A stretch of DNA of 64,000 nucleotides from Tetraselmis striata (taxonomy: Eukaryota > Chlorophyta > Chlorodendrophyceae > Chlorodendrales > Chlorodendraceae): contig VCJN01001595.1 of NCBI GenBank assembly GCA_006384855.1, positions 124,001 to 188,000 of the forward strand, given 5' to 3'. The notes below the pieces were generated by a model. That model saw only the letters and a program-made list of their open reading frames with translations. It had not been told where the DNA came from and searched no databases. This document shows, piece by piece, positions 10,871 to 63,258 of the stretch (within the stretch, counting starts at the first letter, position 1; the number at the start of each line of letters is the position of its first letter). Made by a program: the position numbers and the translations under genes.

Positions 10871-11788
10871 GACCGGACGAAGGTTCTCGTAACCAGGCTT
10901 TGCTATTTGCATTAGCTCTGGCACCGCGAGGTAGTCGTCCTCGCCACTCGCGGATTTTGCTCCGACACGGCGGCCGCTCTCGGCTATAGCAATAAGTTGT
11001 GGCGCGTTGCGGCTTCCCCGTTGCCTGCTGTCGGCTATTCCACGACGCGCTGCCCGGTTCCATAGCCATGTGCTCCGGCTCCATCCACACCACGCCCACG
11101 AGCCGGCAGTTGGTCCAACGACAATGTGATCTCGAGCAGCAATGTAGACTGGGCATGCATGACTGTCAGCTTTAAGCGTTTCGAGCGTCGGCTTGGCGAC
11201 GGGGTCGTCTTCTCCATCTAGTATTTCTCACGAGGGTTTTTCGCGGGTGTCGGCCGAACGGGTCGGCCGAATGGTGCCGCCGCACAACACCGTTGTACTA
11301 GGCCGCGATTCGAGTGATTCACAGGTGGAACACATACGACGGGTGGGGCGGTACGCCAAATCTTCTGCATGTCGGTCGCGGGTCGTGCCCAGGGTACGAG
11401 CACGATTTTTTTTTCGAACAGCCCTCGCGAGTATTAGGCTGCCCCCGTCCGAGTCGAACACCCCCCCTCCTCACGCGTAGGCGGATCTCGGAGAGACCGA
11501 CGTGCAAGGCTGAGGTCGTGCATGAATTATTTGTTGCATCCCCCCATACCGGGCTTCTGCGGCAGCGCCAGCAGGCGCTACCGGGACTACGAGTAGTATT
11601 TGAAAACTCCCCCGTAGGACTCCCCGGTTGTCGCATGATCCAAGGACCCGCCACAACCGGTCACCCCGCTCAGCCCCCTGCCGCACCCAGCCTGGCACGG
11701 GTCGTTTTAGGGGTTACCAGAGCCCAACACATGGAGGGGGTACGTGATGCCGCCGGGTATGCCGCACCCATGATCCTCCGATCCTATA
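10871..11788. other. spacer between two mobile elements, nothing recognised
   Basis: Overlapping short frames on both strands, none with family resemblance. It may include more of the decayed element to its left. Confidence 0.4.
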
Positions 11789-11878
11789 GATGATTTCCAC
11801 GATAAGGTGCTAGTACACAAATACGGTGTTTAGGATTCGTACCCGTACTGGCCCCGGGCAGTAGCTCTTCCCGGGCGC
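11789..11878. repeat. left terminal inverted repeat
   Basis: Reverse complement of 15368-15457 with five mismatches in 90 positions. It is preceded directly by TA, matching the TA that follows the right end. Confidence 0.9.
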
Positions 11879-11996
11879 TCCTGAAACGTGCTGCTGGCGC
11901 GACTGCGCCGCTGCGACGTCGTCATCACCAACTCTCGCCATCGCCACACAACGGCCGCTTTCAGCTTGACCACCCGCCACTCGCTCGCTTGCCACC

Positions 11997-13911
11997 ATGC
12001 TAGACCCTGTAGACCAACGACGCGCTAAGGGCAACGCAAGATACTGCGTGTGCAACCACCGAGGTTGTGGCAAGTCGGTGGACCGGGATGGGCATGGCAT
12101 GAACATCTTCGCGCATGACCGCGCCCGCCTCGAAAAGGTGCTGGACATCCTGGTGCTCAACGACAAAGAGCTGCGCGACCGGGTCTCGAAGGCGCCGAAG
12201 AGCTACCGTGTGCACACCTCTCACTTCAAGGAAGAAGATAAGCGTATGGTTACGGTGGGACAAAGCAAGGTGAAGACGCTGACCAAGACCGCGTTACCTC
12301 TCCCGTTCTCGCACGTTGACCAGCGGCGCGTACCACCCACGCCTACACCCGCGCAAGTCAGCAACGGCAACAGCCGTCCCGCCTCCCCTCGACCAGCTTC
12401 TGCATCCATTCCTCCGCGGCCTCCCTCCCGTGGGGCTGCCATGGTCAGCGCGGTGCTTGGAGCTGGAGTGCGACAGTTTGGAGACCCGCGTGCTGCGTTC
12501 CGGTCACCTCTCAGCAACATCACTAACCAACGGTCAGCATTCAGCCGTGCGGCGCCCCCGCTTCCCTTCTCACGGTCTCCAGCAAGAAAACACTCCGCCG
12601 GCCAACCGCCACCCCAGCAGGTCATCATCAGCATGCGGACAGCAACATGGGCAGCAGTCTCCCCGGCGTGCTGCAAACCCCCAGCCAGCGGACCCTCTTG
12701 TTGTTGCGCACATGCAGCAGCGAATTCGGACGCTGGAATCTCAGTTGCACGACAGCAAAAGCATGTACCATGCAGCCAAGTCAGAGGCAGACAGGCTGAA
12801 GGAGTCCATGCAGCAGTCCTTGAGGGAGAAAGATGTCTTGCATGAACAAGTGGAACAGCTCCGCGTGGAGCTCGCTGAGCAGCGACAGACAACCAGCACT
12901 TTGCTAACGCATGCCATGGCTGAATTGCAGCGCAAGAACCAAGAAATAGATAGAATGCTTGACTCCGCTGTGGATTGCTTGACATGGGATAATGTGATGC
13001 GCGACGGCTCGGCGTGGAACCAATGTGTCAATCATATTACTGGTTTTCCGACTGCGCAATCTCTGCAAGCATTTTTTGACTGGGTTAACACGGATGGTGT
13101 GGCTGAGCGGCTGCGGTACTGGAACGGCCAGCAATCTATTGAGAGGATGGAGGCAGCAGCAAATGGTACGGCGCAACGCCGCTCCGCTGGCAAACCGGAG
13201 CAGAGGAATTTCAGCACCCATGACGCCTGTCTGGTCACCCTGGTGAAGCTCCGCACTGGCATGACGACACGCGTCATCAACGCTTGGACTGGTATCAAGG
13301 TAGCCAGCCTCACCCGCATCTTTCCCACCAGGATATCATATTTGAATACCTTTTTCAATGCGGAGTTCCCTGTGCCCACCACGGACCAAATGCGCGACCG
13401 TGTTGGCCCTGAGTGGAAGGAGGTATTTGGTGCGGTGGTCCGCATGATTTGGGACTGCACAGATTTCAGATTCCAGGCTCCGTGCAGCAGGAAAGCTGCT
13501 CGCACATGTTGGTGCGATTACAAGCAGGGGCACACTGCCAAGCTGCTGGCCGCCATCCTGCCTGTAGGCGCCTACTGTGGCACATCCCAGGCGTACCCTG
13601 GCCGAATCACAGACACATAGATTCTACATGTATCTCACTGGTTGCAGATTCTGGAGAGGGGCGACTGCATCCCGCTGGACAAGGGGTTTGCCCAGTGCGC
13701 ACCCATGCTGCATGCGATTGGCTGCCAGATGATCGCGCCGGCACGCCGTTGGCAGAACGTGCGGCACTACACCGCTGATGAGAGGGAGGGCAATGGCGAA
13801 AAGTCTAATCTACGTATTCACGCAAAGCGTCACTTTTGCAGGATGCAACAATGGAGGTTCTTTGCAGCCAAAAAAATTCCATGCCGCGTGCGGCACCAGC
13901 GCCGTAGTTGA
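11997..13911 (+). CDS. THAP-like / DDE_Tnp_4 transposase of the 11.8-15.5 kb transposon (damaged)
   Basis: Starts at ATG 11997 in one frame and continues from about 12.65 kb in another; a GT at 12621 could open a short intron, or this is a frameshift. Residues about 15-85 resemble a THAP finger (C-x4-C ... VHTSHFKEED, with His where the third Cys usually sits). A Ser/Pro/Arg-rich linker follows, then a coiled coil (about 12.72-12.89 kb). Next comes a helix-turn-helix (LVTLVKLRTGM ... ASLTRIF) and the DDE core: first Asp in WDCTDFRF (about 13.45 kb), second Asp in GRITDT (about 13.61 kb), then GDCIPLDKGF. A TAG at 13618 interrupts the frame, yet the residues on both sides align to the family without a gap, so it is a single nonsense change. 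The third acidic residue, expected as Glu in RIHVER, is Lys (RIHAKR, codon 13825). Both changes predict an inactive enzyme. Confidence 0.75.
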
Positions 13912-15263
13912 GGAACGGTTGGGTGGAAGTTTGTATCCACCCACTCACCTTGGGCATCCAGCGCAGGAAACTTTGCGCCGTCAATCATTTCCTCTGCCAG
14001 ATGCCACGCGATTGCTGGCGTGCGAATCTCAGACACAGCCGGCGGCAGCTGCTCGGACATGCCCGTCGGGCTGAGCATCCCCAGCGCCCGCTTTTCTGCA
14101 TCATCATCATCGATGCTGGTACCAAGAAAAGGCCATTGTTCTAAGGCAGAACTGATATGAATGCGGTCTGTTGTCTCCACTTTCTTTGTTTCAGGGTTGT
14201 ATGCGAGGGCATGCTGGTCGGAACGTATCCACTGCATTATGGGCTGTGGAGATCCATGCCGAAGCATCAAAATCTGCAAACGGGAGCATGTACGCATGTC
14301 ATATAAATAAGGATGCCTTGCCAGGGTGCCCAGGCCCAGCCACACACACCCAACCCATGACCAGCCATGGCCACCCATGCCCAGCCACATATGCAGCGCG
14401 CACCTGAGTTGTTGCTCAGCCTTGCAGGTATTTCCATCGCCATCAAGGGTACAGCTCCAGCCGGATCAAGGAAAACAGCCGGACCATGTTGATTAGCCAG
14501 TTCTTGGCAAATGTCAAGTGCCTTTTTCTGCCCCATGCCCTTTACCTTGGTGCCGCAGTCACAACCAACAAGGAAGCCCAAAACACAGAACGAAAGCCAA
14601 GCCTGTAGCCCCAGTTTCAGAAATTGGGATCTGAACTTTGTCGGTGTCCGGCCACCTTGCAGGGTCAGTGAGAATGTGTTTAGAGTATTTGACACACCGG
14701 CCAGTGCGAATGTTGACTTTGAAAAATATGTGAGGCAGGCCATGTATTATGAAGTCGCTGTCCACTGTAACAACCGCCCAAATCTTCCCCTCGCGGGCAA
14801 GGACCGCGAGTTGGGCGTCGGCCTCAAAGGGCGCGACGATGTAGGGTATACCTGCGCGCCGCAGCTCCGAGATAGCAGCCTTGACGGCTGGCCACCCAAG
14901 TGTGACTGCGGCGCGCAACATCTTAGGATCCGCTTCGGCTCCATCGTACTGCACCTCAGCGAAGGCCTTGGCGCGGTTGACTTGGCGCACCGCATCCGTC
15001 TGTCGCTTTGCAGGCATGGGCGCGCCATCGAACACGAAAAGAAGGTCTACTCCCCGCCCCAGTACGGTCTGAGCCGGTTGTAAGAAGTGCTTCGCGAGCG
15101 GCTCGTAATCGTTGTCCAGCACAAGTGACTGCGCGTGATGGTACCCTAACTGGTGCAACCAGACGTGCCCATCGATGCCCAAGCGGCGCCCACGTGCGAG
15201 CGCATACAAGTTTGTCTTCTCACATATGGGGTTGAAAAGCTTCAGTAGGCTGGGAATTTCCAT
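13830..15263 (-). CDS. XPG/FEN1-family structure-specific nuclease encoded by the transposon
   Basis: Starts at ATG 15263 (MEIPSLLKLF). The XPG N-domain shows IDGHVWLHQ and FVFDGAPMPAK. The XPG I-domain shows APFEADAQLA and VTVDSDFIIHG. The helix-3-turn-helix is GCDCGTKVKGMGQKKALD. The acidic metal-binding residues of the family (D in IDG, D in FDG, E and D in EADAQ, both D in DSD, D in GCD) all appear present. A FEN/EXO1-like tail follows (HALAYNPETKKV), then an acidic stretch and PTVPQLRRWCRTRHG, which looks like the start of a SAP-type DNA-binding helix. The frame changes near 14.65 kb (a 25-nt gap with GT...AG ends, too short to be a confident intron) and at about 14.40/14.28 kb (ordinary GT-AG intron). 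It lies wholly between the TIRs and ends inside the transposase 3' end. Likely role: flap or nick processing during transposition (inference). Confidence 0.75.
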
Positions 15264-15367
15264 GGTGTTTGGTCTGGTGTGCTGTGCTGGCGTGAGGGTG
15301 GCGACATTGACTGACGAGCATCGGACAGGCCAGCAGTCAAACGCCTCCGCGAGTGCGCGGGGCGGCC

Positions 15368-15457
15368 GCGCCTGGGAAGAACTACTGCCCGGGGCCAATA
15401 CGGGTACGAATCCTTAACACCGGATTTGTGTACTAGCACCTTATCGTGGAAATCATC
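15368..15457. repeat. right terminal inverted repeat
   Basis: Pairs with 11789-11878. Its last base is followed by TAT, matching the TATA that precedes the left end. Confidence 0.9.
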
Positions 15458-16394
15458 TATTGGGCCGGTGCCTGGCGGCGGGCGCCGCCGCGCCGACATC
15501 TCCGGGTGCGGCTACTCCACCTGCTAGACAGCCACCGCACCAGGTTGTGGCGCCCGCATCGGGCGAGACGCCACGAGACGCCGCGACGATCTTTCAGCGA
15601 CCCGCAGAAAGATACCGAGCGTTGAGAAGCCCGGACCACAAGTGCCGGGGCTAGTATACTAGCATATAGCTAGCACAGAAACGTCCCCCACGCCCAACAC
15701 CCTCCGCACGTCGGGCCGGGCGCCTCGGCTGCCTCAGCCCGAGTGCGGAGGCTCTGCTAGTGGGGAAGGGCGGGGTAGGCGGGGAGGGGGCGTCCGTGGG
15801 CGGGGCGCCCTAGCTGCACCCGCTGGGATAGTGGGCGACAACTATCGATAGGACGAGGGAGGTTTGATGGGTTAGTATGGGGCGCTGCTAAGAAGCACGA
15901 TGAATACCCGGCCAAGGTGAACGACCAGGGTACGAGTAGGGACGGGAAGGGTGTTTACAAGAAATAAAAAATGAAAATACGAAGGAGACGGGCGGGATAT
16001 GCCCGCTAGCTAAGTAGGGAACTTGCCTTGAGAGGGTTGCACGCGCTACGCACAGTTAACATAGTGGACCTTCTGCGGGTTCATACCGCCGTACCGTAAG
16101 ACAACTGGCCCGTTTAGTATCAAAGCCTAAGCGGGCATAAGTCGTATCCGCCATACATGCCCATCGGAGAATTGCACCGCATGCTCCGACCGCATTTAGG
16201 TTCGTGGCGTTCCCGGGCGGACTTGTATGGATAACTCACGGTCGATACAAGCCTCCCGGTCGGTGTCCGGGCGCAAACAAGCCTTCCGGCGATCGGCCGC
16301 GCTTCTTGCGCCCTCCCAATTGGTGGCTTGTATGCCCCCGGAAACACCTCCGCCAGGCGATCGGAGTAGTCGAGACTGCTGGACGATACAAGTA

Positions 16395-26800: not shown

Positions 26801-29800
26801 CCACACGGGGCGGGAGACCTCCCTGTTTGTGCAGCCGCTGCGGTGGATGGACGGCGCGATCGGCCAAGTGAACGGCAAGCTGTACTGCCCAAAGTACGCA
26901 GGCACTGCCGCCTCGCCGCCGCATGCCCAGCCGCCTGCGCCACTGCTTACTGCCCCATCCTTGCTTGCCAGACGCCAGCGCGGCACTATAAGAATGTACA
27001 CTGTGCAATTAAATTCGGTTCGCGGGGCCACCGAAGATGAATTGTTTTGCACCTTCGCGTCGGAAGATTCGTGATGTATTCGTGTTTTATTCTAATATAT
27101 TTCTCGGTTTGTATAGCTTTCCCTCTTCGCAGGGCAGGGAGGAGGAGGGGGGGGGGGGGGGGGGGGGGACAAAACATTGTTCCTGCAGATCATATGTGTT
27201 TGTATGGTGATAGCGCACTTAGCTTGATAAACAGGGGTCGAAAACCAGTGGCCGCTCAGTGTTCGCTGCTCAAAATATAACCAATTGCCACTGTTGGTGC
27301 GATATATATGGGACGGGTGCCGACGCGCCCATACGAACCCTTATTCTTGTATGGCGCAGATAGGGCTCGCACGCAACTTATCCAAGCCCCTATAGCTCCG
27401 CTACAGTTTCCTGCCATCATGTCAGGTCGCCAGCATGTGCCTGCCTTCTTACGCCTTGGGGGTCGATGGCACTGACCCCGGGCTAAGCGGCTCACGCATG
27501 CTGCCCTGTGGTTAACCTTTTACTGGTGCCGCGCCTTAAAGAACATTTGCTACTAAAAAGCATCAGATAGGTCATGCGTGCAACCTATATAAGGACAGCC
27601 GCTACAGTTTTGTCTACATCTGACCTATGACAGGTACGGCAGGTAGTTCCTATTATTTGCCGTGTTGTTTGTACCGCGCCGGCACCCGCAGGTGCCGGGC
27701 CTGCGTGCGTCTTGTCGGAGGTTATCAGCACACAGGACTGGGCAGGTGATGCGCTTACCGCAATGGCACTTTGGGTTCCCTATGCAATACTGTTTCGGAC
27801 CCCCTCCCCCTTTCCCCAATGAGAGAGGAGAGCTACACTCATCTGCTGGAAACCTGTCAAAATGCACCGTGCATATGTAGCACCGACCATCCCACGACAT
27901 TGCGCAATACAATTCGTCGTTTCTGTGAGCCGCAGTCCCAACGGAACGGTGCGGAATGGGAAGGGCATCCTCCCTCACCCAACCGGGGCAGCCCGGAATC
28001 GCTGCCTCCGGGGCCCTGCCCAAGCGTGACACGAGCGCTCCTGTGGGCGTGGGCCGCAGGTGCAGCGAGCGCCTGGGGTCCTACAACTGGGCGGGCATCC
28101 AGAGCAACAGCGGCACCTGGGTCACGCCCGCCTTCCAGCTGCACATGTCCAAGCTGGACACCATCTCGCCCCGCCTGGACAGCCAGCTCGCGGGGCGCAT
28201 CGCGCGGCCGCGCCAGGCGGCGCCCGAGGCGGGGGATGCCGCGGCGCGCCTGCGCCGCTGCGGCTACCTCGTCTTTGACTGCGACGGTGTGCTTGTCGAC
28301 TCTGAGCCCGCGTCGTGCGAGGCACTGCACCAAGCCGTGCTGGAAGTCACGGGTCAACCCCCCCCCCCCCCCCCATATGGGACGCCTTTTGGGGGTAGGT
28401 TGAATAATAATGATAATAACAATAATAACCATCATCATCATGATAATAATAATAATGATGATAATGATTTATAGCAGTGTGTATTCAATGGATGCAGTTT
28501 TGAGATTGTAGGTGAATTCCTTCTGAATAATAATGAAGGATTTATTATTCATTATTCCTTCTTAAAATAATGATGATAACAATAATAACCATCATCATCA
28601 TGATAATAATAATAATGATGATAATGATTTATAGCAGTGTGTAATCAATGGATGCAGTTTTGAGATTGTAGGTGAATTCCTTCTGAATAATAATGAAGGA
28701 TTTATTATTCCTTCTTAAAATAATGATGATAACAATAATAATAATCATCATAATGATAATAATAATAATGATGATAATGATTAATAGCAGTGTGAATTCA
28801 ATGGATGCAGTTCTGAGATTGTAGGTGAATTCCTTCTGAATATATGTTTGTTGAATTGTGAAGCGCCACCAAGATGCTCTGTGGATGCATATGGAATACA
28901 TACAGCGCAAAGAAGCCACCCTTGAGTTGCTATCGATCAAAGGCTATTACCCCCCTCCCACCCCCCCCCCCCCCCCCCCCCCCGCCGGACACCTTTTGGG
29001 GGTAGGTTGAATAATAATAATAATAATAATAACCATCATCATAACGATAATAATAATGATAATGATTTATGGCAGTGTGTTTTCAATGGATGCAGTTGTG
29101 AGATTGTAGGTGAATTCCCTCTGAAAATAAGTTTGTTGAACTGTGAAGCGCCACCAAGATGCTCTGTGGATGCATATGGAATACATACAGCGCAAAGAAG
29201 CCACCCTTGAGTTGCAATCGATCAAAGGCTATTACCCCCCTCCCACCCCCCCCCCCCCCCCCCCCGCCGGACACCTATTAGGGGTAGGTTGAATAATAAT
29301 AATAATAATAATAACCATCATCGTAGTGATAATAAGAATGATAAGGATTTATAGCAGTGTGTTTTCAACGGGTACAGTTGTGAGATTGTAGGTGAATTCC
29401 CTCTGAAAATAAGTTTGTTGAACTGTGAAGCGCCACCAAGATGCTCTGTGGATGCATATGGAATACATACAGCGCAAAGAAGCCACCCGTGAGTTGAAAT
29501 CTATCGAAGGCTTGGTGAAGACTATTGGTGGCGCCCGACGCGTCTTCGGGGTTTGCTGATACGGATGCCGCCATTGCAGGGGTGGACATCCCGCACGCCT
29601 TCCCGCAGGACTACTACCCCCTTTTCGGCATGGACGTTCGGTCTTCCTGCCGACACTATGCGGACACCATGAACACGTAACCCCCCCCCCCCCCCCCCCC
29701 GCCCCCCCCCCTTCCTTCTCCCAGCAGCCCCCATGAAGGTGGCCAGGGCGGGCGCTGAGCTCCGAGTGCGCCGCCGGCCGCAGCGGATGGGACGTGGAGG

Positions 29801-29969
29801 CGGTGGCGGCGCAGGTGACCGAGGCCAAGGAGCGGCACTACAAGGCGCTGACGGCGGCGGGCATCGTCGCGTTCTCCCACGTCCACGAGCTGGTGGCGCG
29901 TGCCAAGGACCGCGGGATGGTTGTCGGCGTTGGATCCTCAGGTGCGCACGTGCACACACAGAGGGAGAG

Positions 29970-30013
<44 letters not shown>

Positions 30014-30056
30014 TGGGTGTGTGTGTGAGAGTGATATATATATAGAGAGAGAGCGC

Positions 30057-30093
<37 letters not shown>

Positions 30094-30144
30094 CGAGAGA
30101 GACAGAGAGACAGAGACAGAGAGACAGAGACAGAGACAGAGGGA

Positions 30145-30175
<31 letters not shown>

Positions 30176-31761
30176 TGAAAGAGAGCGCGGGAGAGACAGA
30201 CAGAGAGACAGAGAGTGTGTGAGAGAGAGAGTGCGTGAGAGAGAGAGAGAGGAGAGAGAGCGCGCGAGAGAGAGAGAGAGAGGGAGAGAGAGACAGAGAG
30301 TGTTTGTGAGAGAGAGAGTGTGTGTGCGTGACAGAGAGAGTGCGTGAGAGAGCGCGCGAGAGAGGGGGGGAGAGAGAAGCGTTGCATGGAGACGTTGTAG
30401 TTGAAGGGCATCACGGCAATCAGGCCACATGTACGTAATGGTTTTGGCCGCTGTCACATCATCTTTAGTGCGCAGTTGGCCGAGGCAGCAGAGCCCCGAT
30501 GAGTGAACCGCACAGGCATCCGCCTGACGCTCGAGGCCATCGCCGGTGCCACCTGCACAGGTTCCCCGGAGAAGATCGCGCACAACTTGGCCAGCGCCGG
30601 CCTGGCGGGTCTGTTCCCCGGCGACCTGGTCGTGAGCGCCAAGGCGGTGGCGCGCGGCAAGCCCGCGCCCGACGTGTACCAGGAGGTGATGCGCCGCATG
30701 GAGTGCGCGCAACCGGATAGGTGCGGCGACCCCCCGCCGCATGCCTGCAGATCCCATGGCATGTAGACAGAGACTGCCTGAATTTCAGGGTTTTGCGTGT
30801 GACAGTGAAGGAATATTCATATTCATTTACAACCAGTATATACCCGTTCCCCCCCAATCTGCCATCGGGCAGCGCTTATTCGCGAAACGCGGTTTCGCCG
30901 GAATGTCGGCCTTATGCCATCATCCCACACTTAATTACCCCAAACCCCCCCAAAATGGTTTTCCGCCCACTGCGAGAAGTGGGCGAACATGGCATGCAGG
31001 TTATCGAACGAGCCTGTGAGACCAACAGCGTCGTCCGCGTATAACTGACCCGGCAGCACCCGTAGTGGTTGCCTTGCCGCTAATAAATGTGTCGGTGCAC
31101 CCTGGTACGTCACACCCTGGATGTTCTCCCCCATCGAATATATCGTTAATAATTATGTTAAGTCGGACGGGGGAAGCGGGGCAGCCACCACTGCCGGAGG
31201 CCACGCTCTATGGGTATGGGGTATGACAGTGTTCCCGGCGCCACCCCTATCTTGACCCGTACCATGCTGTCCCTGTATGAAGTTTTAAGGAAGGTAAGCA
31301 TATGACCCGTGACCCCTATGGCTTGTAGTTTCAGGAATAAAAGCTCTCGAGGTACGGTGTTAGGACGTGTGGATGGCGTTGAAGCAATCGCAGGGTTTGA
31401 GGCTGTTGTTAATAGGGTATTCATGGGTTTGGTAGCCCTATGTTGCGGCAGGGTAGCGTCTCAAGACGCTGGATATTCCAGAGTCGATGTTGTCCCGGCC
31501 CTACTCTAGGACGGGCCGAGTGCTCTGGGGATGTTGATATGCGAGCAAAGGCGCTCCATGATGCCCTCGCTGACAATGGCGGCGCTGCCTTGTTCCGGCA
31601 GAGTCGCCATAATTGAGGACGCCGTCAACGGGCTGAAGGCCGCTCGGGCGGCAGGCGCGCTGGCGGTCGGTATCACCAACACGCTGCCGCGGGTCACCCT
31701 GGCGCCGCATGCGGACCTGGTGGTGGGGTCGCTTGCGGAGCTGGCGGCGATGCTGTTGTGA
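23839..31761 (+). CDS. DUSP12/YVH1-type phosphatase fused to a HAD-family phosphatase (10 exons)
   Basis: Exons: 23839-23967, 24081-24281, 24429-24562, 24843-24948, 26676-26893, 28060-28352, 29580-29676, 29784-29941, 30561-30720, 31602-31761; 551 residues, all phases matching. N-terminal dual-specificity phosphatase: LYLGALESL, THIL, then the P-loop VLVHCHAGMSRSAAV with the HCx5R Cys and Arg. The YVH1 link follows (YALDPTNAAYKRFAL). The C-terminal zinc domain has YRCRTCRALV, SLFVQPLRWMDG, GKLYCPKC and RLGSYNWAGIQ. Within the same exon 6, with no stop, a HAD subfamily-I domain begins: FDCDGVLVDSEP (nucleophile Asp), then VDIPHAFPQDYYPLFGMDV, VVGVGSSGSPEK (motif II), ARGKPAPDVY (motif III Lys) and IIEDAVNGLKAA (motif IV). 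Known: YVH1 acts in 60S ribosome maturation; HAD-I enzymes often dephosphorylate small metabolites. The fused role is unknown. Start ATG 23839 is the nearest upstream of the domain; an earlier exon is possible. Confidence 0.85.
25351..25450 (+). repeat. intronic dispersed repeat (GTGGACGAAACTGCAG family), copy a
   Basis: Shares TGTGGACGAAACTGCAGC, TATATAGGTTGC, GCAAGCCC and TTCTTATAG blocks with copies at 25861-25955 (+), 27337-27412 (-) and 27528-27620 (-). All lie in introns 4 and 5 of the DUSP-HAD gene. Confidence 0.65.
25497..25745 (+). repeat. tRNA-derived SINE, copy 2 (in intron 4)
   Basis: Same plan as the copy at 1657-1903: A-box GCTCGGTAGAGCGG, B-box GGATCGATTCC, shared body including GGGCTATGCCAGACCTACGA, and terminal CTTTACTTTAC. 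It sits in sense orientation within intron 4 of the phosphatase fusion gene. Confidence 0.75.
25861..25955 (+). repeat. intronic dispersed repeat, copy b
   Basis: Second sense copy of the family at 25351-25450; the two sense copies flank the SINE. Confidence 0.6.
27337..27412 (-). repeat. intronic dispersed repeat, copy d (diverged)
   Basis: On the minus strand GAAACTGTAGCGGAGCTATA followed by a GTTGCGTGCGAGCCC block aligns with copy b. Confidence 0.5.
27528..27620 (-). repeat. intronic dispersed repeat, copy c
   Basis: Inverted relative to copies a and b: on the minus strand AAACTGTAGCGGCTGTCC, TATATAGGTTGCACGCATG and TTTTTAGTAGCAA match copy a. Confidence 0.6.
28380..29520. repeat. complex tandem array in intron 6
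   Basis: Five modules begin with an (AAT/GAT)n simple stretch followed by GCAGTGTG-T-TTCAA-GG-T and GAGATTGTAGGTGAATTCC. Three of them continue into a block of about 130 bp (TTGTGAAGCGCCACCAAGATG ... CAGCGCAAAGAAGCCACCC). Two of those end in a poly-C run and the GCCGGACACC junction; the full unit repeats at about 287 bp (28985 versus 29272). The array fills most of the intron between HAD exons. Confidence 0.85.
29960..30376. repeat. long GA/GT microsatellite in intron 8
   Basis: About 410 bp almost wholly of GAGA, GTGT and GCGC dinucleotide tracts. The long Ser/Leu minus-strand frame across it is an artefact of the repeat. Confidence 0.95.
30931..31424 (-). mobile_element. LINE (non-LTR) reverse transcriptase fragment in intron 9
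   Basis: On the minus strand, inside and antisense to the DUSP-HAD gene. Recognisable blocks in order: VPRELLFLKLQAIGVTGHML, YRDSMVRVKIG, ERGLRQ, then GGCPASPVRLNIIINDI in another frame, then LPGQLYADDAVGLTGSF in a third. These are the palm-domain steps of non-LTR reverse transcriptases, including the catalytic YADD. At least two frame changes show it is dead. No endonuclease or tail was found, so it is a 5'- and 3'-truncated relic of about 500 bp. Confidence 0.8.
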
Positions 31762-36024: not shown

Positions 36025-38156
36025 CCCCTACCTCTTGGGTTGAGCCTGGTGCGGGATGCGGGCCGCTTTTAGCCGGCTTGTACAGTAGTGTTGATCTTGT
36101 ATTAATACTGTTGTTTCCGGGTAATAATGCTTTTTGCTTTTAGCGTTAGATTTGTCAGTAATTTATTTTGTAAAACAGATTAAATCTGCAAGCCGCGTAA
36201 AAGCGGGCCGCTGACCACTGGTGTGCATTACAAAAAGGCCGGTACACAACCCACCGCTAAAAGTGGTATTACCCAAAAAAAAAAAAGGCAGCACTACAAG
36301 ATCAGCAATACAGTACAAGCCGCCCACGGGCGGCCCGCATCCCGCACGAGGCCGCGCAAGTCGGGCCGGTCGTCAGGTCTACGGGGCGGGCACGGCGCGA
36401 ATCGCCACGCCCGCCGCCTGTACCGGCACCGGACGCCGGACGCCGCCGTTCGACCGTCGCCCGTCCGTCGACGGACGCCGGGCCCCGGGTCGGCGGACTG
36501 CCCCCGCACCGCGGCGACCCCTTTTTACAGCATCATGTTAATACAGCACATATCCTCGGACCACCGTGTATATGTATATAGTTTTTTTTTATTACATGAG
36601 CTAGACGCAACATTCAAGAAATCCACACAGAAATCCAGAAGGAAATCCAGAAGGAAATCCAGCTACGGGCCAACAGAGGCAGGAACCGCCATGGTAGCCT
36701 CCGACCAGGCATCGCCACCAGCCAGCCGCCGCTCCACGCAGTAGGGACGCTCTCCCCAGCACACAATCCCGGGCCACTCCAATAGCGGCACTAGGCCGAA
36801 TGTAATGTGAAGGCGCCGACAGGAAAGGAGCTTCGAAGTTGAGGTCTCGCAGCAAGGAGCGGAAGTGGGGGGTTCCAACCCAGAACGGGGCGCCACGGGC
36901 GTGCAACAGACGCAGGCCACCCAACGCCAGATGCGCCGCCAGCTCGGTCGCGTCCTTTTCCGCCAAACGTAGAACGCCTTCCCCAGCACAACATCCCGGG
37001 CCACTCCAATAGCGGCACTAGGCCGAATGTAATGTGGAGGCGCCGACAGGACAGGAAGGGAGAAAGTGCTCAACGAGTAGGGAATGCAGAGCCGACCGGG
37101 CCAGCAACGACGTAAGACGCCGGTGTCCAGCGCGCGTTGTTCCGCCCAGCGCCAGATCCGCCGCCAGCTCGATCGCGTCCCCTTCCGCCGAACGTGGAAC
37201 TCCCTTCCCAGCACAACATCCCGGGCCACTCCAATAGCGGCACTAGGCCGAATGTAATGTGGAGGCGCCGACAGGACAGGAAGGGAGAGGGTGCTCAAAG
37301 AACAACGAACAGGGACTTGACCGGACCAGCAACGACGTAAGACGCCGGTGTCCAGCGCACGTTGTTCCGCCCAGCGCCAGATCCGCCGCCAGCTCGGTCG
37401 CGTCCCCTTCCGCCGAACGTAGAACTCCCTTCCCAGCACAACATCCCGGGCCACTCCAATAGCGGCACTAGGCCGAATGTAATGTGGAGGCGCCGACAGG
37501 ACAGGAAGGGAGAGGGTGCTCAAAGAACAGCGAACATGGACTTGACCGGACCAGCAACGACGTAAGACGCCGGTGTCCAGCTCACACTGCTCCTCCGCGG
37601 CAGTGGCAGCACGGGCGGGGCCAAGGCAACCAAGGCGCCACCCGTGCACGATCCCCGCCCCCATCCCCAGCCGGGGGTGGAGGCGGAGGAAGGGCCCGCG
37701 ATTCCGAGGGCCGAGGACGGTCGTCGGGCCCGCCCAGGAGGCGGAGGGTGGGTGGGTGGGTGTGGGTGTATACTGGTGTGAATTATAAAATATATATAGT
37801 CGCTGTATAAATATAGAGGGCGAGTCTCGCTTGCTGATTCAGCAGTAAAAACGCGCTGCGGTACCGCGTTATTTTGGCGTTTCAGACGAATACATGACGT
37901 GCCTGGGCTAGAATACACGCGCATCCATTCAGAATCTTGCCGTCTTCGGAGGTGTGCCTAGAAATCAAACGAGCACAGATCGAACGTATGACGGTTCATA
38001 CGCGAAGACGCAGCACTGGAGGACGGAGGACGGACGGAGGACGGACGCCTAAAAATCCGTGATAAAACCGTATTGCTACCGGTATCGATTCTCGCGTATT
38101 CCAGGCGATTTCGGACGCGGCTCTCCTTTTCCTCCGCTCAACCCAAGAGGTAGGGG
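36025..38156. mobile_element. inverted-repeat DNA element, copy 1 (enlarged by inserted repeats)
   Basis: Begins with CCCCTACCTCTTGGGTTGAG and ends with its reverse complement (38136-38156). The left about 520 bp and right about 340 bp are near-identical to the matching parts of 38201-39576. The middle (about 36.6-37.78 kb) is a different insertion containing the 225-bp minisatellite. There is no transposase, so it would be non-autonomous. No clear target duplication is seen, so the true ends could lie elsewhere. Confidence 0.7.
36720..37600 (-). repeat. 225-bp minisatellite (about 4 units) with an open frame
   Basis: The landmark CACTCCAATAGCGGCACTAG occurs near 36775, 37002, 37227 and 37452, so units are 225-227 bp. 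The last three are almost identical. Because 225 is a multiple of 3 a minus-strand frame stays open for 333 codons, each unit giving about 75 residues with the core HYIRPSAAIGVARDVVLG. It has no recognised domain; treated as repeat rather than gene. Confidence 0.85.
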
Positions 38157-40734: not shown

Positions 40735-41922
40735 TCAGCTGCTCGGCGGAGCAGCGTACGCCAGCACGAAGCCCCCAGCGCGAGGGTCTGCCCCGTCGAT
40801 GACAGGAAGCACCGCTACCCGGATCATGTCCTGCAGGAGGGTGTCATATATGCCTCGCGGCACGTGCTGCATTGTGCCGGAAGCGATGGCCGGGTTGGCG
40901 TTGATCTCCAGCAGCACCAGCTCGCCGGTGGCGTCCACTGCGAAATCGCACCCAAACAGGTAGTAGGGGTGCACGTTGCGCGCGGCGCCTCCCTCGCCAA
41001 AGACCTCCGCTGCGACGTGGTCCCTCACGCATGCGTGCACCCGCCGCACCGCAGCGAGCGCCTGCGGCCACACGCCGGCGTAGAGCTCCGGCGCGCTGGC
41101 GGCGAGGAGGGACGGCGCGGGTGACGCCTTGCCGGCGGAGCTGACATGCGCTGCCCGGGGTGAGGACGGCAGGCAGTGGTCCGCGCCGTGAGCCACGGCG
41201 ATGCAGTCCTTGTGCAGGTGCACGGCCTCAGTTCGGCCGCCCGGGCCAAACGTCCAGAGCATGTGCATCCTGAGAGTGAAGGCGCGCCGAGTGCCGGGTA
41301 GGAGCAGCGGCCGCACGCCCATCTGGCAGACGAAGCTCTCCCGGGCGGGGGCGTCCAGCGCGCGGAGCCACTCCTGGGCGCCAGCCACGTCGTCGAAGAC
41401 ATGCACCGCCTTGCCCTTGACACCTCGGCAGTGTTTAATGAACAGCAGGCCGCTGTGACGCGCCGGCGTGAAGCTGCGAGCGCGCCACTCCCGAGCCAGC
41501 TCCGCGTCCAGCAGCTGCGCGCCGGCCAGGGAAGGAGGCATGCAGGCATCGTGGCCCGCGTCGACAAGGTGGCGCCACAGCGCTAGCTTGCAATCCAGGT
41601 GCGCCGTGCTCTTGATGGGGAACTGCGCCACGACGGGCGCAGCCGCGGCGTCGGACGGCAAGCTGCAGTACTTCCCGCCCTTGCGCGAGAGAAAGGAAAA
41701 CGCCGGCACCCACCCCTGCCTCGCGGCCTCGTCAGGCTTCACTTCCCTCCATCCGTGCTCGGCGCAGAGCCACCGCAGCACGGCGGGCGTCACTCTCGAC
41801 AGCGGGCTGAACAGGGCAGCGCCTTCGGGGTCGCGCGCTGTGGGGTGCCGCCCCACCCAAAACACCTTCGCCGCCGACGGTGGGGCCGCAGCCCGCATCC
41901 CCCCGCCTGCCGCTGTCGACAT
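40735..41922 (-). CDS. tubulin-tyrosine-ligase-like (TTL domain) protein, single exon
   Basis: One uninterrupted frame of 395 residues. ATG 41922 (MSTAAGGGMR) is preferred to upstream non-ATG codons. The N-terminal third matches no domain I know. From about residue 160 it follows the ATP-grasp plan of TTL proteins: LLFIKHCRGVKGKAVHVFDD (nucleotide-binding Lys and Gly loop), SFVCQMGVRPLLLPGTRRAF then TLRMHMLW (counterpart of the family's PLLI-G-KFD-R), and YYLFGCDFAVDATGELVLLEINANPAI, whose E-x-N is the metal-binding pair. Such enzymes add Tyr, Glu or Gly to tubulin tails or other proteins; which of these applies is unclear. Lack of introns is unusual for this window and could mean retroposition or simply a compact gene. 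It is relatively short and diverged compared with flagellar polyglutamylases. Confidence 0.8.
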   Translation of the reverse strand: MSTAAGGGMRAAAPPSAAKVFWVGRHPTARDPEGAALFSPLSRVTPAVLRWLCAEHGWREVKPDEAARQGWVPAFSFLSRKGGKYCSLPSDAAAAPVVAQFPIKSTAHLDCKLALWRHLVDAGHDACMPPSLAGAQLLDAELAREWRARSFTPARHSGLLFIKHCRGVKGKAVHVFDDVAGAQEWLRALDAPARESFVCQMGVRPLLLPGTRRAFTLRMHMLWTFGPGGRTEAVHLHKDCIAVAHGADHCLPSSPRAAHVSSAGKASPAPSLLAASAPELYAGVWPQALAAVRRVHACVRDHVAAEVFGEGGAARNVHPYYLFGCDFAVDATGELVLLEINANPAIASGTMQHVPRGIYDTLLQDMIRVAVLPVIDGADPRAGGFVLAYAAPPSS

Positions 41923-43652
41923 CAACCACAGCAAACGACTGGTGGCGTACTGGCTGCAGGGTACCCTTGGCGCGAGTACGAACTGAGCACGAGTAGACCT
42001 GCACTAGCGGGGCGGCGAAACGCTGCTTCCTTCGGCGCGTCGTGGCCGCTAGCGACTAATCCTTATACATCCCGTGGAGAGGGCGGCGGCGAGCCGTTTT
42101 ATTTTGTCTTGCAACGAATACTTCTCCTCTCCACGATGTTCTTGAGCGCAGTCTCGGCAAGCCCGCTGCGAAGCACCCGCGACAGCAACACGAGCTGCGT
42201 GAATGGTCGACCAGCGTGTTGCTGTGCTCCTCCCCCGTTTCTCTGGCATCGCCATCAACACCCGAGCAGCAGGATAAGCGGTGCTGGTTGAGGACGCACC
42301 TAACGCACGGACGCACGTTAGGTGATCATGTCTGCCCGCGTAGCTACTAGTTGTCCTTAGATAAATAGATAAATAAAACATGTATTATATCTCTTCATGC
42401 ACAGCTACCGGGTATCTCCGTACTGCTGCCTGACGCCGTGGCGCGCGCCGGCTTAAATGATAGTACTAATCCGTATTAATATCAGTAGATAATTTCATAT
42501 AGTGTGGTAGTATCTACTCAAGTCATTATATTAGATAATAATCCTGCTATACCGGCGGTTCCTGTAGCATCCACATATAGATAGTTCTTTATTCATAGCA
42601 GTTATAAGTAAGTTCGGGCGGTATACGGAAGAGTTTATCCGCCGCCGGGAATAGGAAAAATGAAGTTTTCATCGAGGCGGTTTGCGCGCGTGAGGTGACG
42701 CAAAATCTATATCATCAATATAGTCTATGCGGCGCGAGAAGCGCGCTGGTTTTTTACAAGCTGTTCACCGGGTCAATTAGGTTATTACGGTTCGCAATTT
42801 CGACCGTAGGGATAATACATCTGTGTTTTTCTATCCTGGGGGAACTCCTCGTACTCGACTCAATATCGTCCACCGCCGCGGCGAGCCGCGCCGCACCGTG
42901 CGCACCCCGCGGGTTCGAGCAGCGCAGTATGCAAACCGCATCCACGACTTGATGCCCTCAGCAGTTAGTACGACGCGCCAACCAGCACAGCAGGCCAGGA
43001 GAACACAAGCTCGCGGAAAAAAATGGCCAGCAGACTGTGCTGCGCAGGCTCTGTGAGCGACTGATTGCTCCACGTGCAAGGGGCAGGAAGTGCAGCAGGT
43101 TCGCCCACGCGCGAGCAGCGGCTGATCGGCATGCGGCCATGCGCTTGCGTCGCGAGTATGATATTAAAGGGCGCGCTCGTCGGCCCTGCAATACTCTGCA
43201 CCTGTACGCGTCCGGGTGGCCGCGGATATTTTATTTCCATCGGGTGGGGGGGGGGGGGGGGGGGGGGGGGGAGGGGGGGTTAACCAACCCATGTGGCAGC
43301 GCTTGTGGTTCCCCCTGGCAAAACGGGACACTTGGTGGCGCGTCATGCGCTCGAGTGGCAGCGTGGCACGTCGAAGTGACGGAGTATCCACCGTCACGGA
43401 GAACACGGGGAACCAACATGAGGCGCTGCTCTGGCGTCCATTAGCATTCGTTATGCAGATCGATGGAGCGGCATGTATGGCTGAATTGCGCACTGTGTTG
43501 TGGCAGGCCTTGCCCTGACCAGCTGCGCACCGGGCAGTGTTTGACGCCTGGAAGTGGCATGACGCAGCCTCCTCATTACACGCCGGGCTCTCTTCCGCAG
43601 GCGTCTGTTCCTCCGGTCAGAATTCCGCACAGGAGCATGTGGAGCCATCGGT
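41923..43652. other. intergenic, no gene recognised
   Basis: AT-rich between 42.35 and 42.6 kb, and a 35-nt poly-G run near 43243-43280. Open frames at 42.05-42.38 and 42.8-43.1 kb compete on both strands and show no family match. An upstream exon of the next gene probably lies in its last few hundred bases. Confidence 0.45.
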
Positions 43653-49637: not shown

Positions 49638-52600
49638 TCAGAAGGAGGAGATGGAGCCGCGGCCGGCGGAGAAGGTGAGCAGCAGGGGGCTGACGCCCGA
49701 CCCGCCGCGTCCGCCGTAGAACAGCGCCTGGCCGTCCGCGACCGCCATCGCAACCTCCGAGAGGGTGGGGATGGTCTCGAAGCCGGAGAGTGATAGGCGC
49801 GGGATCATGCGGAACCAGCGGTTGTTCGCGACCTCGTACGCCCAGATGTCGCCATACTCGTTGAACTCGGTCGAGCCCTCGGAGCCGCCGACGATGTACA
49901 TCACGCCGTCGTCGAGCGACGCCGCGTGCGCCATGCGGGCGAGCGGCACGCTCTCGCCGGTCGCCTGGCGCGGCACGATGGTCGACCACACCAGCGTGGC
50001 CAGGTCGAGAGACAGCAGCGAGTTGGGCGCGAGCTCCTCGCCGGTGTGGCCACCGAACACGAGCATCTTGCCGTTCTCCACCACGGCGGTGTGGCCGAAG
50101 CGCGCGAGCGCGATGTCGGTGCTGGACGCGGCGGCGTGGGCCGAGAGGTCGTACCACTCGCCGGCCTCAGGGTCGAACTCCCAGAGGTCGGCGAATGCGG
50201 CGCTCTGGGCGCCGGGCGCTTTGCCGCCGTACACGTACAGCTTGCCGCCGGCGGAAACCATGCTGGTCTGGTAGCGCGGGGCCGGGGCGCCCGCGCCCGC
50301 GGTGTGGAAGGTCCAGCCAGCGCCGGGGGTGTAGCTCCACAGGTCGTTGAGCGCGCTGGCGCCGCGCATGCCTCCAAACAGGAAGAGCGCCTCGTCGGCG
50401 CCGCCCTCCGCGCCGTGTCGAACCATCGACGCGCCGCGGCGTCCGGGTGGCCCGTAGCCGGCGGCGCTGTCCGCGGTCAGCTGCCAGGCGGCGCCGTCGC
50501 TGTACAGCGCGTCGCCCGCGCCGCCCGCCTCGGACGGGCCGATGAGCACGGGCAGCGGGCGCGCGGGGTCGGTGGCGCCGATCGCGCGGAAGCGGTCCCA
50601 CAGCGCAGGCCCGTCGGAGGACTCCTTGAGCACGCGCACGCTGGTTGGCGCGATCACCACGCCCGGGATCTGGCGCACGCCCAGCTCGTCGACAAAGACG
50701 CCGACGCTGCCGTCCGCGTAAGCGACGAGCTCCACGCTGTGCCAGCCGCGGCTACGGCCGCTGCCGATGGTGAACGGCCTCTCGTCGCCCAGCTGGAAGA
50801 TGTACTGGTCGGTGTAGAGCCCCTCGCGCGCGAGCGTGTCGACGCCGATGCGCACCGTCGCGTTGCCGTCCGACAGCTCCAGCAGCTGCCGCCCCGCGCC
50901 GCCGAGGTCGTAAAACGCAAACTGGGCGTAGAAGGACGACGGCAGCGACAGCGGCAGCCACTCGCCGATCTTGTTGGCGGGCTGCAGGTGGCCGGGCTCC
51001 GCGAGGCCGGCCCAGTAGCCGCTGGCGTTGAAGGGGAAGCCATGCGGGGCGTCCATCGCGTCGCCGCCGGCCTGGTCGCCGGTGATGAGGTCACCCGGGA
51101 GCGCCCCGCCGCCGCCGAGATTGATGCCCGGGCCGCCGGCCTCCATGCCGTCGCCGTTGGGGGCGGGCGCGGCGGTGCGATCGCGCCCGCCGAGTGGCAC
51201 GACAGTGTCGAAAAACTGGGAGGGGCGCACCGGCGGCTGTCGCGGCGCGGCGGCGTTGCCGAAGTGCATTCGCACCTCGCGGCTGGCGGGCGTGCCGCGC
51301 AGCAGGAACACGGTGACGGGGGAGCCGCAGCCCGGGACGGGCAGCATGATGGCGGGGATAAGCGCGCTGGTGGCGGAGTCGGTGAAGCGGACGTCGGAGC
51401 AGTCGGGGCGGATGCGCGGGTCGGTGGTGTCCACCGTCGCGCGCACCAGCTCCGCCGCCTGCCCGGCCGGCATCGTCAGGTTCACGTAGTGCCCCGACCA
51501 GCCGGGCGCGGGGCGCTCCAGCCGCCACATCTGGGTGCCAAACGCGCGGCCGTCGCCCTCGACGCCGCCAAAGAGGTACCAGTCGCCGCCCAGCGATGCG
51601 GCCGACGCGCCGTATAGCGAGCCGGGCGAGCCGGCGGTGGCGTCAAGCATGGCGCGCCCCACGACGGGGCGGCCGATCGCGAGGGTGATGCCGCCCGAGG
51701 TGGACGGCTCGCCGTTGACGGTCCAGTCGATGAGCAGCTCGGGCGTCTCGCGGTCGGGCGTGAAGAGCAGCGTGTACGTGCCGTCGCCGTGGTCGGCGAG
51801 GCGGTGGAACAAGAACGACTCGTCGCTCTCCGCCGCGAACGCCACCGCGCGCGCGTCGCCGCCGGTGAGCAGCGCGTTGCCGTACTCGTCGCGCGCGGTG
51901 AAGGGGACGCCCGCGAGGGTGCCCGCGACGGGGTCGCCCAGCACGGCGAGGCTGTCCACGGTGGAGGCGGCGCTGATGTTGCCGGGCAGCACGCGCAGCA
52001 GGTGCGTGAGCAGCGCCTCCGAGCGCGCGCCCGAGAAGTCGAGCGCGTACCAGCCCGCCGTCGTCATCGTGAAGTTGGCCAGCAGCGGGCCGGTGCCGCA
52101 GACGGGGCTGCTGCGCCGCCACTCGTACGTTATCAGCCCGACGGGCTCGCCGCCGTAGCTCCAGTCGCCAAAAGCGGCCTCCGCGTGCGCCAGCGCGCCA
52201 GGGCCTGGCGGAAAGTCGTCCCATGTGAGCGGGCGGGGACCGCCGGTGCTCATGGACGTCGGCAGGTCGTCGCCCACGTACCAAAAGCCGCACTGGTCGC
52301 GGACGCCCAGCTCAACGGTGGCCACCTGCGTTGCATCAAACATCACAGAGGCGCGGGGGGGGGGGGGGGGGGGGGGGGGTCAGTTCATATCCTACACGAG
52401 TTGAGGCCACTGGAGCGGATGAATACACACAGTCACAATGGGGGGCTCATACAAATTCATACTATTACGGTATATTACAGATTATATCATAGGAACAGCC
52501 GTGCTATTATGATACCCGAGGTAGTAATAAGCAATATAAAATCGTAGCGACAGCCGTGCTATGATATATTAGTTATCTTTAAGACCAGCAAACATGCAAT

Positions 52601-61600: not shown

Positions 61601-63258
61601 GGTGAAGTAGGCGGTGTGCGGGCCCGCGCTCGCGTATTGATGGTCAAAGGAGCCAACGAGCGTGAGGAAGTTGGCGCTCGGCTCGTCGTCGCCGCTGCTG
61701 TAGTCCACCATGGCATCGATGTCCATGGAGGTGCCGTCGCCAAGGTACATACCGTACTGCTCCACAGCGGGCGTGCATGTGGTGGAGTTCAGCACCAGCT
61801 GGTCACTGCAGGTGGCTAGGCTGGCGTTTCCCGCGCGGAAGCGGATGGTCGTGCCCTCCACCGCCGGCGTGTACATCGCCTTGTCGCCCAGCTCGCAGCC
61901 GGCCTGCCCAAACGCGGGGTGGTCCACAGGCGGCAGCGGTGCCACCTCCGACAGCCAGTAGAACAGGCAGCCGGAGGAGGTGGTGCCGATGTCCGTGGCG
62001 CCTGCCTGGTACTCGGACAGGATGTCGCGGAAGCCGGACTCGCCGGGCCGCTGGTACGCCGTGAACGTCTCACTGTTCAAGATGTCGGGCGCAAACATGT
62101 AGGAGGGGTCGCCGCCCCAGTAGTAGTCCTTGCGGAAGGCGAGCTGTGGCAGGAGCAGAGCCGAGTGTGGGAATTAGAGGCAGGCAGCCAAGATCGAGGG
62201 AGGGGGGTGATAGGCGCGGCCAGCGGAGTGGAGGGGGCACCCACCCTAATGTGGAACTTCACGCCAAAGACGGAGTACGCTCGGCTGGTGATCTCCGGGT
62301 TGGGCTCATAGTACATTGTACCATAGCGGAAGCCGGACAGGGCTGCACGGACAGGGACGCAGGGGGTTGTCATTCACTGGCGACGGCTGGCGTCAGCCGC
62401 GCAGGACCAGAGGGGCAGCAGCGGCACGCCATCATAATGACATGTTTCCCCAAATACAAGAGGCCACGGACGCTTGTGTCCAGCCTGGCCGCCTCGTCCT
62501 TAGACTATCTCCGAGCCCCTCTGTCCGGCCCGGTGCACCGCTGCTGTCCCAGCCATCCAGCTGACCGGAAAAAACACGTTACGCAGCGGGCCTGCGCCCA
62601 ATGCGAGTGGTCCCCTCCGGGCACCCCCCACCCCCGGGGGGGCTTCCCCCATAAGGAGGCGGGAGGACGTGCGCCGCCGCTCTGCCGGCTCAGGTGCACC
62701 CATCCGCGCGACTCTGCGCAGCATTCCCGCCGTACTCCGCCTCCTGCGTGCTTCGGGCGCTTCGGTGGCGCGCGCTTGGAATGGGGGGCGGGCGGGGGGG
62801 GGGGGGGAGGAGGTCGCGCCCACAGCAGCCCGGGGGCCCGGGGGAGCAGCTCGGCGCATGTTGGCCGCGCCGCCCTGCGTTCGGCCAGACCCCATCGCGA
62901 GTACTGCTCTAACTACTGCTCGTAAAATGCTGATGACTACAATAATAAAAATATTTTCGTCGCTGCTGCCGCAACTGCAACCGGGCGTACTGGCACTGTA
63001 CTCGTACATAAAGTACGTGGGAACTACTGCTGCGATGAGATGCGCCCCGCCTGGATGCGGCCAGTTCGGTTCCGCTGCCGCTGCCGCTCGAGCACGCGGC
63101 AGGGCGCGGGGGCGGGGGGGGGGGGGGGGGGGGAGGGGCGTAGAGGGACGGTGAAGAAGGGGGGGGTTACCTTGAGCGGCTTGGAGCGAGGCCAGGGCCA
63201 GCAGCGTCAGCAGCGCAGCTTGGGCAGCAGCGCCCATCGCGGGGCTTAACCGCGACAT
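49638..63258 (-). CDS. giant secreted LamG/TIG/filamin/Kelch multidomain protein (5 exons)
   Basis: Exons 63258-63171, 62342-62245, 62143-56687, 56302-52888, 52325-49638; about 3,915 codons. Exon 1 is a signal peptide (AALLTLLALASLQAA). Next comes a conserved-looking N-terminal region (RKDYYWGGDPSY) and cadherin-like SPVIVARPVIPIP...FDPDGDGITFSLP. Then come about six or seven concanavalin/LamG-like modules (signature WHHVxVxVT...YVDG...GxVDEVxV), TIG domains (ITLTGANFAPSAFLSC, VPLIGANFAQSPFFGC), and filamin-like repeats (VPFTARDEYGNALLTGG). The protein ends in Kelch repeats (LYVYGG, MLVFGGHTGE, MYIVGGSEG). Five proline-rich insertions are each followed by R[RK]xL. A hydroxyproline-rich glycoprotein of the wall, scales or flagellar coat is inferred. 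Exon 4 holds one surplus base: reading is perfect if one G of the GGG at 53199-53201 (minus sense) is dropped; otherwise it stops at 53159. Introns are AT-rich with poly-C. Confidence 0.85.
52340..52880. repeat. intron 4 of the giant gene: poly-C tract and TTATGATTA-type array
   Basis: A 23-nt poly-C (sense) ends about 30 bp upstream of the acceptor. The middle (about 52.62-52.85 kb) is a degenerate array of GTTATGATTA/TATGTTAAC words. Confidence 0.8.
53199..53201 (-). other. single-base frame break in the giant gene
   Basis: Minus-sense CTCGAGGGCCGGCC breaks the frame; with GAGGCC it reads LEAGLGACPVGASNFER and continues for about 310 bases to the next donor. The exon-length arithmetic also leaves exactly one extra base. 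Assembly error or a real indel cannot be told apart here. Confidence 0.8.

Follow-up and report, generated by a model that had tools for sequence, protein, structure and literature searches.

A green-algal DNA transposon that pairs a DDE transposase with a putative EXO1-type nuclease and resembles ISL2EU elements

Several groups of DNA transposons carry an extra nuclease gene, and in all of them the job of the nuclease is, to our knowledge, unproven. A transposon of Tetraselmis striata raises this question again. It occupies positions 11788-15458 of the DNA analysed here (the window, a stretch of 64,000 nucleotides) and holds a transposase gene and an XPG-family nuclease gene between terminal inverted repeats (TIRs). 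Does the nuclease belong to the transposon, where does it come from and what might it do for the element? That it belongs to the element, as a first-pass annotation of the sequence had held, is supported by its position between the ends of all 14 full-size elements read, by its conservation across three families and by its transcription in one of them (family B).

A transposon with two convergent genes

The window element is a DNA transposon bounded by TIRs. It has a transposase gene (DDE_Tnp_4/HTH_Tnp_4) on the + strand and, convergent with it, an XPG-family nuclease gene on the - strand, both inside the inverted repeats; we regard this identity as very likely. An inverted-repeat scan of 6.5 kb found arms of 101 nt at 11778-11878 and 15368-15468 that are 92% complementary, and in a second comparison the element ends were inverted repeats of 90 nt at 94%. 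The remaining two inverted repeats listed in the same 6.5 kb measure 23 and 20 nt (74-80%). In Pfam, the transposase matches DDE_Tnp_4 (E 1e-7), with HTH_Tnp_4 (E 0.0043) and a downstream DDE piece (E 5.7e-4) under the cut-offs, and the nuclease matches XPG_I (E 2.1e-13) and XPG_N (E 1.5e-8). Domains and repeat arms thus confirm the initial description of a transposase and an XPG-family nuclease between inverted repeats of about 90 bp. The limits are set at 11788-15458 because the target-site duplication is AT and not TA (see later in the text). The features are as follows.

11786..11787: AT target-site duplication, left copy (AT at 17/17 left ends listed, and empty sites)
11788..11878, + strand: left TIR, starting AGATGATTTCC (inverted-repeat scan, copy comparison)
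11997..13876, + strand: transposase gene, broken; ATG at 11997; THAP-like N-terminus, coiled coil, HTH_Tnp_4, DDE_Tnp_4
13876..13877: junction left by a deletion of 1,280 bp, as compared with copies L010 and L009 (copy alignment and gene positions)
13877..14390, - strand: nuclease gene, remaining central part, frame-shifted; exon limits approximate (copy comparison)
14391..15263, - strand: nuclease gene, first exon with some of the intron (limit approximate); XPG_N, XPG_I; ATG at 15263
15368..15458, - strand: right TIR (inverted-repeat scan, copy comparison)
15459..15460: AT target-site duplication, right copy (AT at 16/17 right ends listed, GT at one)

Both genes recur in further copies

The T. 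striata assembly (G000, 224 Mb) contains at least 30 matches to the 90-bp end, all lying within the window or in stretches that were read. They form two families: A has 10 matches at 94-100%, and B has 20 at 81-86% over 51-59 bp. Thirteen elements of these families have both ends (the window copy, L009, L010, L015-L020, L024, L025, L027 and L028), and both genes are present and convergent in 12 of them. L020 (C2631:43898-44682), of only 785 bp, has both ends but, of the genes, just nuclease residues 1-93 and a piece of the transposase N-terminus, and looks like an internal deletion of a two-gene element. On contigs C2846 and C2768, two ends are separated by 18.6 and 9.8 kb, and fragments of both genes are present; these are probably interrupted elements and were left out of the element counts. 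Among the single-ended matches, L013 and L014 have no gene, L023 (at a contig end) has the transposase only and L026 the nuclease only.

The nuclease search revealed a third family, C. Its members L058 and L059 are 98.7% identical across the 5.95-kb element, and the flanks read show no match between the two. Both have their ends, an open frame of 677 codons with the transposase, and the nuclease parts; the family C transposase and a JGI Tetstr1 gene model (P0001) agree at every one of 429 aa. Overall, 15 two-ended elements in three families were read, of which 14 are full-size, the window copy aside 4.3-5.9 kb long. The first-pass annotation had asked whether other TIR-bounded copies carry the nuclease, and all 14 full-size elements hold both genes. 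The identity of the nuclease core between families is 46-77%.

Pairing of the two genes extends beyond the elements with defined ends. At least 83 nuclease and at least 75 transposase matches merge to 55 and 45 loci, counts that are lower bounds as the transposase search scored 67 of 128 candidates. A convergent nuclease lies within 7 kb at 36 of the 45 transposase loci found, and random placement gave a mean of 0.05 pairs (points within 8.5 kb), with a maximum of 2 across 2,000 simulations. The nine unpaired loci are on C1199, C2170, C1842, C2519, C941, C7, C2759 and, twice, C2470. C1199 counts as paired after all because the nuclease (residues 312-755, 38%) is present in its locus L060 and converges on the transposase; the match scores of C2170 equal those of C1199. 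Both loci on C2470 and the one on C2759 are near contig starts, and C7 has a nuclease about 11 kb off. Outside the T. striata assembly, a transposase (P0005) and a nuclease (P0012) both come from an ENA contig of 8,284 bp in length, which suggests that the two genes may be linked there too.

Two further loci were recorded. L060 (C1199:2000-8900) is a more distant element, in which the C-terminal part of the nuclease is 38% identical to family B, the transposase best matches P0004 and family B, and the XPG part was not detected. L050 (C1619:337617-338171) is a nuclease relative that stands alone, no transposase being matched within 7 kb of it; its frame of 313 aa is open, and Gly replaces the second metal-binding Asp.

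The target-site duplication is AT

The duplication had at first been read as TA. For an empty-site search, the joined flanks of nine copies were compared with the genome. L010 is inserted in a repeat with many unoccupied copies, and the three that were aligned all read GGATCGTTATTCC; the occupied site reads GGATCGTTAT-[AGATG...CATCT]-ATTCC. One empty site was found for L016, agreeing with the AT model except for one substitution. For L010 and L016, the empty sites fall 2 bp short of the length expected under the TA model, and in the match listing the unoccupied flank matches of L018 are 2 bp short in nearly all rows. The target duplication is therefore AT, the inverted repeat begins with A (AGA) and TA is ruled out. 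A 3-bp TAT duplication fits L010, but not L018, L019 and L025, whose left ends read GAT or AAT.

AT is found at 17/17 left and 16/17 right ends listed, one right end having GT; this count omits four aberrant ends (right of L009, L015 and L027, left of L011), and two end limits were placed by eye (L019 left, L028 right). The neighbours of the duplication are a 5' T in 13/17 and a 3' A in 12/17, so the target is mostly T|AT|A.

The insertion sites of L010 and L018 lie in genome-recurrent repeats (L062-L068; C2405, C1399, C1231, C498), some of them spaced about 2.9-3.1 kb and 1.52 kb on one contig. One repeat sequence, GGTTACAGGGAGAGCG, lies close to the insertions of both L019 (family B) and L059 (family C).

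Both genes of the window copy are dead

The first-pass annotation had considered the nuclease of the window copy intact in its metal-binding acids and helix-three-turn-helix (H3TH) motif, and the transposase damaged. Only the second point holds: the transposase has a TAG at 13618-13620, a Lys in place of the third catalytic Glu and an 11-bp deletion near 12551. In the nuclease, frameshifts at about 14629, 14611 and 14575 break the frame ahead of the last metal-binding acid and the H3TH motif, and the seeming integrity came from residues scattered across two frames. The start reads MEIP versus MGIP in L010, with Gly2 changed. Moreover, through the 1,280-bp deletion at about 13876 the nuclease has lost its C-terminal, SWIM-like part and the transposase its 3' end.

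By profile the nuclease is closest to EXO1, and it is not a recent copy of the host EXO1

From its sequence, the second gene is predicted to encode an EXO1-type XPG-family nuclease of about 760 aa with a SWIM-like zinc-finger motif in its C-terminal half. The gene of L016 (family B) has one intron of 152 bp (GTAACC...GTGCAG) and a product of 757 aa. Two splice models stay open for it, and a transcript bears out the one chosen: the open reading frame P0007 of an MMETSP transcript equals residues 61-757 of the spliced nuclease. P0007 matches across the junction, and the family B nuclease is therefore transcribed and spliced as modelled.

A profile built from nine relatives matched EXO1 best among PDB entries (E 3.6e-41, 144.6 bits, over EXO1 1-334), followed by FEN1 (E 1e-23, 86.9 bits), RAD2 (E 3.7e-18, 68.5 bits) and GEN1 (E 6.8e-6, 27.9 bits). 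Of the initial FEN1/XPG label, the XPG family assignment stands (XPG_N, XPG_I), and the FEN1 type is rejected since EXO1 outscores it. The seven metal-binding acids, assigned by human EXO1 residue numbering, are all kept in 11 of 12 nucleases (those of A_L010, B_L016, C_L058 and P0008-P0015), the exception being C1619. The acid pattern is E-x-D in the transposon nucleases as in EXO1; the host GEN1 and XPG fragments have E-x-E.

A search for database relatives, with 8,000 candidates scored, gave P0008-P0010 and P0012 (ENA contigs, 45-55%), P0011 (Prasinocladus malaysianus, 52%) and P0013, which aligns at 27% identity along 99% of the full protein. Of the 13 database nucleases P0007-P0019, 6 have a SWIM-like CxCx(n)CxH motif in their C-terminal half, several others being incomplete; the carriers are P0007, P0008, P0009, P0013, P0018 and P0019. 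Searching with the C-terminal half alone returned five proteins, all of the same kind (P0008, P0009, P0010, P0018 and P0019), and no named domain. A PHROGs search with the nuclease gave no match.

The first-pass annotation had also considered that the nuclease might be a recent copy of a host gene and had proposed placing it in an XPG-family tree. The host has separate genes of its own with the I region: L029 is best matched by GEN1, L030 by RAD2/XPG and L054 by EXO1 alone, and L031 resembles FEN1 as judged by eye. Identity to the host EXO1 across 82 residues is 30% in family A, 27% in B and 23% in C; the host EXO1 is itself 38% identical to the human enzyme (compared over 69 residues) and 40% to a fungal one (over 70 residues). 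To human EXO1, families A-C are 24-27% identical over 232-237 residues. These identities rule out a recent capture of the host EXO1, as does the presence of the host's own EXO1, XPG and GEN1 genes. In the nuclease tree, which omits three partial host rows, human EXO1 and fungal EXO1 form a group of their own (100/99), separate from the transposon nucleases; P0015, distant and long-branched, is weakly joined to them (84/86). The transposase tree (P0006 omitted, midpoint root) and the nuclease tree agree in making A and B sisters and in placing P0005/P0012 nearer to A/B than C lies. A viral source has no support in IMG/VR scans with P0003 and P0009, whose reach is close relatives only.

Comparison with known transposons

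The family C transposase matches PF13359 (E 1.5e-24) and PF13613 (E 7.6e-9), so that DDE and HTH domains are present. CxCx4C occurs in B_L019, C_L058 and P0004, and RVHTxHF in C_L058, P0003, P0004 and P0006; we take these motifs to resemble a THAP domain with His at the third Cys. A PDB profile search with the transposase gave nothing under E 0.29.

According to a published survey, ISL2EU elements combine an AT duplication with an HTH and DDE transposase that has a THAP domain, average about 4.8 kb when autonomous, encode a YqaJ exonuclease in their second open reading frame, usually start their TIR with GG at a target A|AT|T, and were found in animals only (PMC4482050). By this description, our element is alike in its AT duplication, HTH and DDE transposase with a possibly THAP-like N-terminus, second gene encoding a nuclease with a DNA-binding part, and length (4.3-5.9 kb). 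It differs in that the second gene is of the XPG/EXO1 type instead of YqaJ, the TIR starts with AGA instead of GG, the target is mostly T|AT|A and the host is a green alga. YqaJ is not the domain of the second gene, for which Pfam gives XPG_N/XPG_I instead. The element thus resembles ISL2EU in AT duplication and domain order, and we describe it as an ISL2EU-like lineage within PHIS whose partner is of the EXO1 type, without filing it as ISL2EU. The genome has two YqaJ matches, on contigs without a found transposase of this kind. One of the two, the YqaJ-domain gene locus L069 (C2605:158200-163800), has no match to these transposases within 5.6 kb; its DNA, with long open frames, looks like an integrated virus.

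PIF/Harbinger elements likewise have two genes and a transposase with HTH and DDE motifs. However, the TWA duplication and the Myb/SANT, DNA-binding second protein given for them in the same survey (PMC4482050) are not found here; Myb/SANT had no match in nine nuclease proteins or in five non-transposase pieces of family C. In the Kolobok lineages KolobokE, KolobokD and KolobokP, a DDD/E transposase is accompanied by an extra nuclease, encoded on the complementary strand in KolobokP, and the folds are lambda-exonuclease-like (KolobokE), DEDDh and His-Me finger (PMC9587614). Our element shares the accessory nuclease beside a DDD/E transposase, but nuclease folds and transposase superfamily are different.

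Among the literature matches listed (titles and beginnings of abstracts, Repbase being outside the scope), none describes a TIR transposon with an XPG nuclease. The AcademX nuclease is reportedly of the XPG type, and the earlier statement that no described group has such a partner is perhaps unsupported. AcademX encodes a nuclease beside its transposase, as our element does, but with duplications of 3-4 bp (PMC10045372), compared with the 2-bp AT here.

Possible role of the nuclease

Since both genes persist in the other copies, the nuclease probably assists the movement or copying of the element. We read the element as an ISL2EU-like transposon whose EXO1-type nuclease resects donor breaks, to which we give a probability of roughly 0.55; the donor-break role taken separately stands somewhat below an even chance. 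PHIS transposases cut and paste, EXO1 digests 5' strands from ends and nicks, and the YqaJ fold is lambda-exonuclease-like, hence 5'-to-3'. The transposase would excise the element and join it to AT targets, and the nuclease would digest 5' strands at the ends broken by excision, or 5' flaps at the joints. The donor break, once resected, could then be repaired from a sister copy, so that the element would be kept or multiplied. Processing of DNA ends during excision and repair is thus the likeliest role, and in it the nuclease would fill the slot held by the non-homologous YqaJ exonuclease in animal ISL2EU. Unrelated nucleases of like activity in like places argue for a function, in a parallel that draws partly on general biochemical knowledge.

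Several points weigh against this reading. The nuclease activity and its 5' direction are carried over from EXO1, and the use at donor breaks is inferred. The protein matches EXO1 in the catalytic core (1-334), the seven acids and E-x-D, but differs in its low identity to human EXO1, its SWIM-like C-terminal half and its place in a transposon. Families A-C are 42-47% identical to the host XPG over a 55-residue fragment, a stretch different from that used for the host EXO1, and by this measure the EXO1 label is not favoured; we gave more weight to the full-length profile search. Pfam reports SWIM only under the cut-off (E 0.21-0.28, in 3 of 9 nucleases), and THAP has no Pfam match in the transposases searched. 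Among the copies read, none is shown to have an open frame in both genes: the transposase is open in L058 and L059, where the nuclease gene model is incomplete, and the nuclease is open in L016, where the transposase has a TGA. Moreover, for 19 of the 55 nuclease loci no transposase was matched inside 7 kb. Finally, dS is saturated (1.6 to infinite), so that dN/dS values, with one copy per family compared, are rough and to be trusted in direction only. The values themselves are low and count in favour of the reading: between A and B about 0.05 in the nuclease first exon (pN 0.151, pS 0.743), 0.11 in the nuclease C-terminal part and 0.15 in the transposase, and with family C 0.16-0.31 in the nuclease where finite (one pair has infinite dS) and 0.21 and 0.22 in the transposase. 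Third-position changes exceed second-position changes in all comparisons.

The nuclease might instead act in the manner of FEN1, trimming 5' flaps or helping to close short gaps at new insertions, which we consider unlikely, though the strongest of the alternatives. XPG-family enzymes are known to cut 5' flaps, an insertion staggered by 2 bp leaves short gaps, and FEN1 is the second-best PDB match; but the EXO1 score lies far above that of FEN1, and the E-x-D acids are those of EXO1, not the E-x-E of the host GEN1 and XPG fragments. Less probable still is a protein that mainly binds DNA and brings the transposase to ends or targets, with the nuclease secondary, as is proposed for the Myb-like partner in PIF/Harbinger, whose second open reading frame is described as a DNA-binding protein (PMC4482050). 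The long C-terminal half is indeed conserved, as the whole-length match of P0013 indicates, but between A and B the nuclease half is the better conserved (pN 0.151 versus 0.187), and the seven acids persist in 11 of the 12 nucleases tested. The weakest rival is a passenger, a captured host EXO1 that hitch-hikes without aiding transposition: its catalytic core is that of a host repair enzyme and many copies have decayed, but the nuclease is better conserved than the transposase (A-B amino-acid identity 77.6% in the first exon and 68.7% in the C-terminal part versus 64.0%), is kept in all 14 full-size copies read, seems linked to a transposase on the ENA contig of P0005 and P0012 as well, and at 27-30% (A, B) and 23% (C) is far from a host EXO1 that keeps 38-40% to human and fungal EXO1, so that we find it improbable.

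Returning to resection of donor breaks by an ISL2EU-like element, a green-algal, perhaps wider eukaryotic, lineage may tentatively be proposed to have exchanged YqaJ for an unrelated EXO1-type nuclease. If so, two non-homologous exonucleases in one slot would mean that end resection encoded by the element is required for transposon multiplication. The nuclease is a member of a repair family that has been studied in depth and whose catalytic residues are known, copies with an open transposase (L058) or an open nuclease (L016) survive, and T. striata can be cultured, which makes the question testable.

Other features of the window

Three long open frames on the - strand span 49638-62098, in DNA of 64-75% GC with long overlapping frames on the + strand. 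They hold Kelch repeats (49638-52346), Laminin_G_3 (53159-56407) and Laminin_G_3 with TIG (56651-62098). An open frame at 40735-41934 has a partial tubulin-tyrosine ligase domain. Tandem repeats lie at 28406-29512, 29960-30377 and 36920-37585; they consist of AATAATGATG-rich units of 153 and 282 bp, an array of AG dinucleotides and a 225-bp unit present three times.

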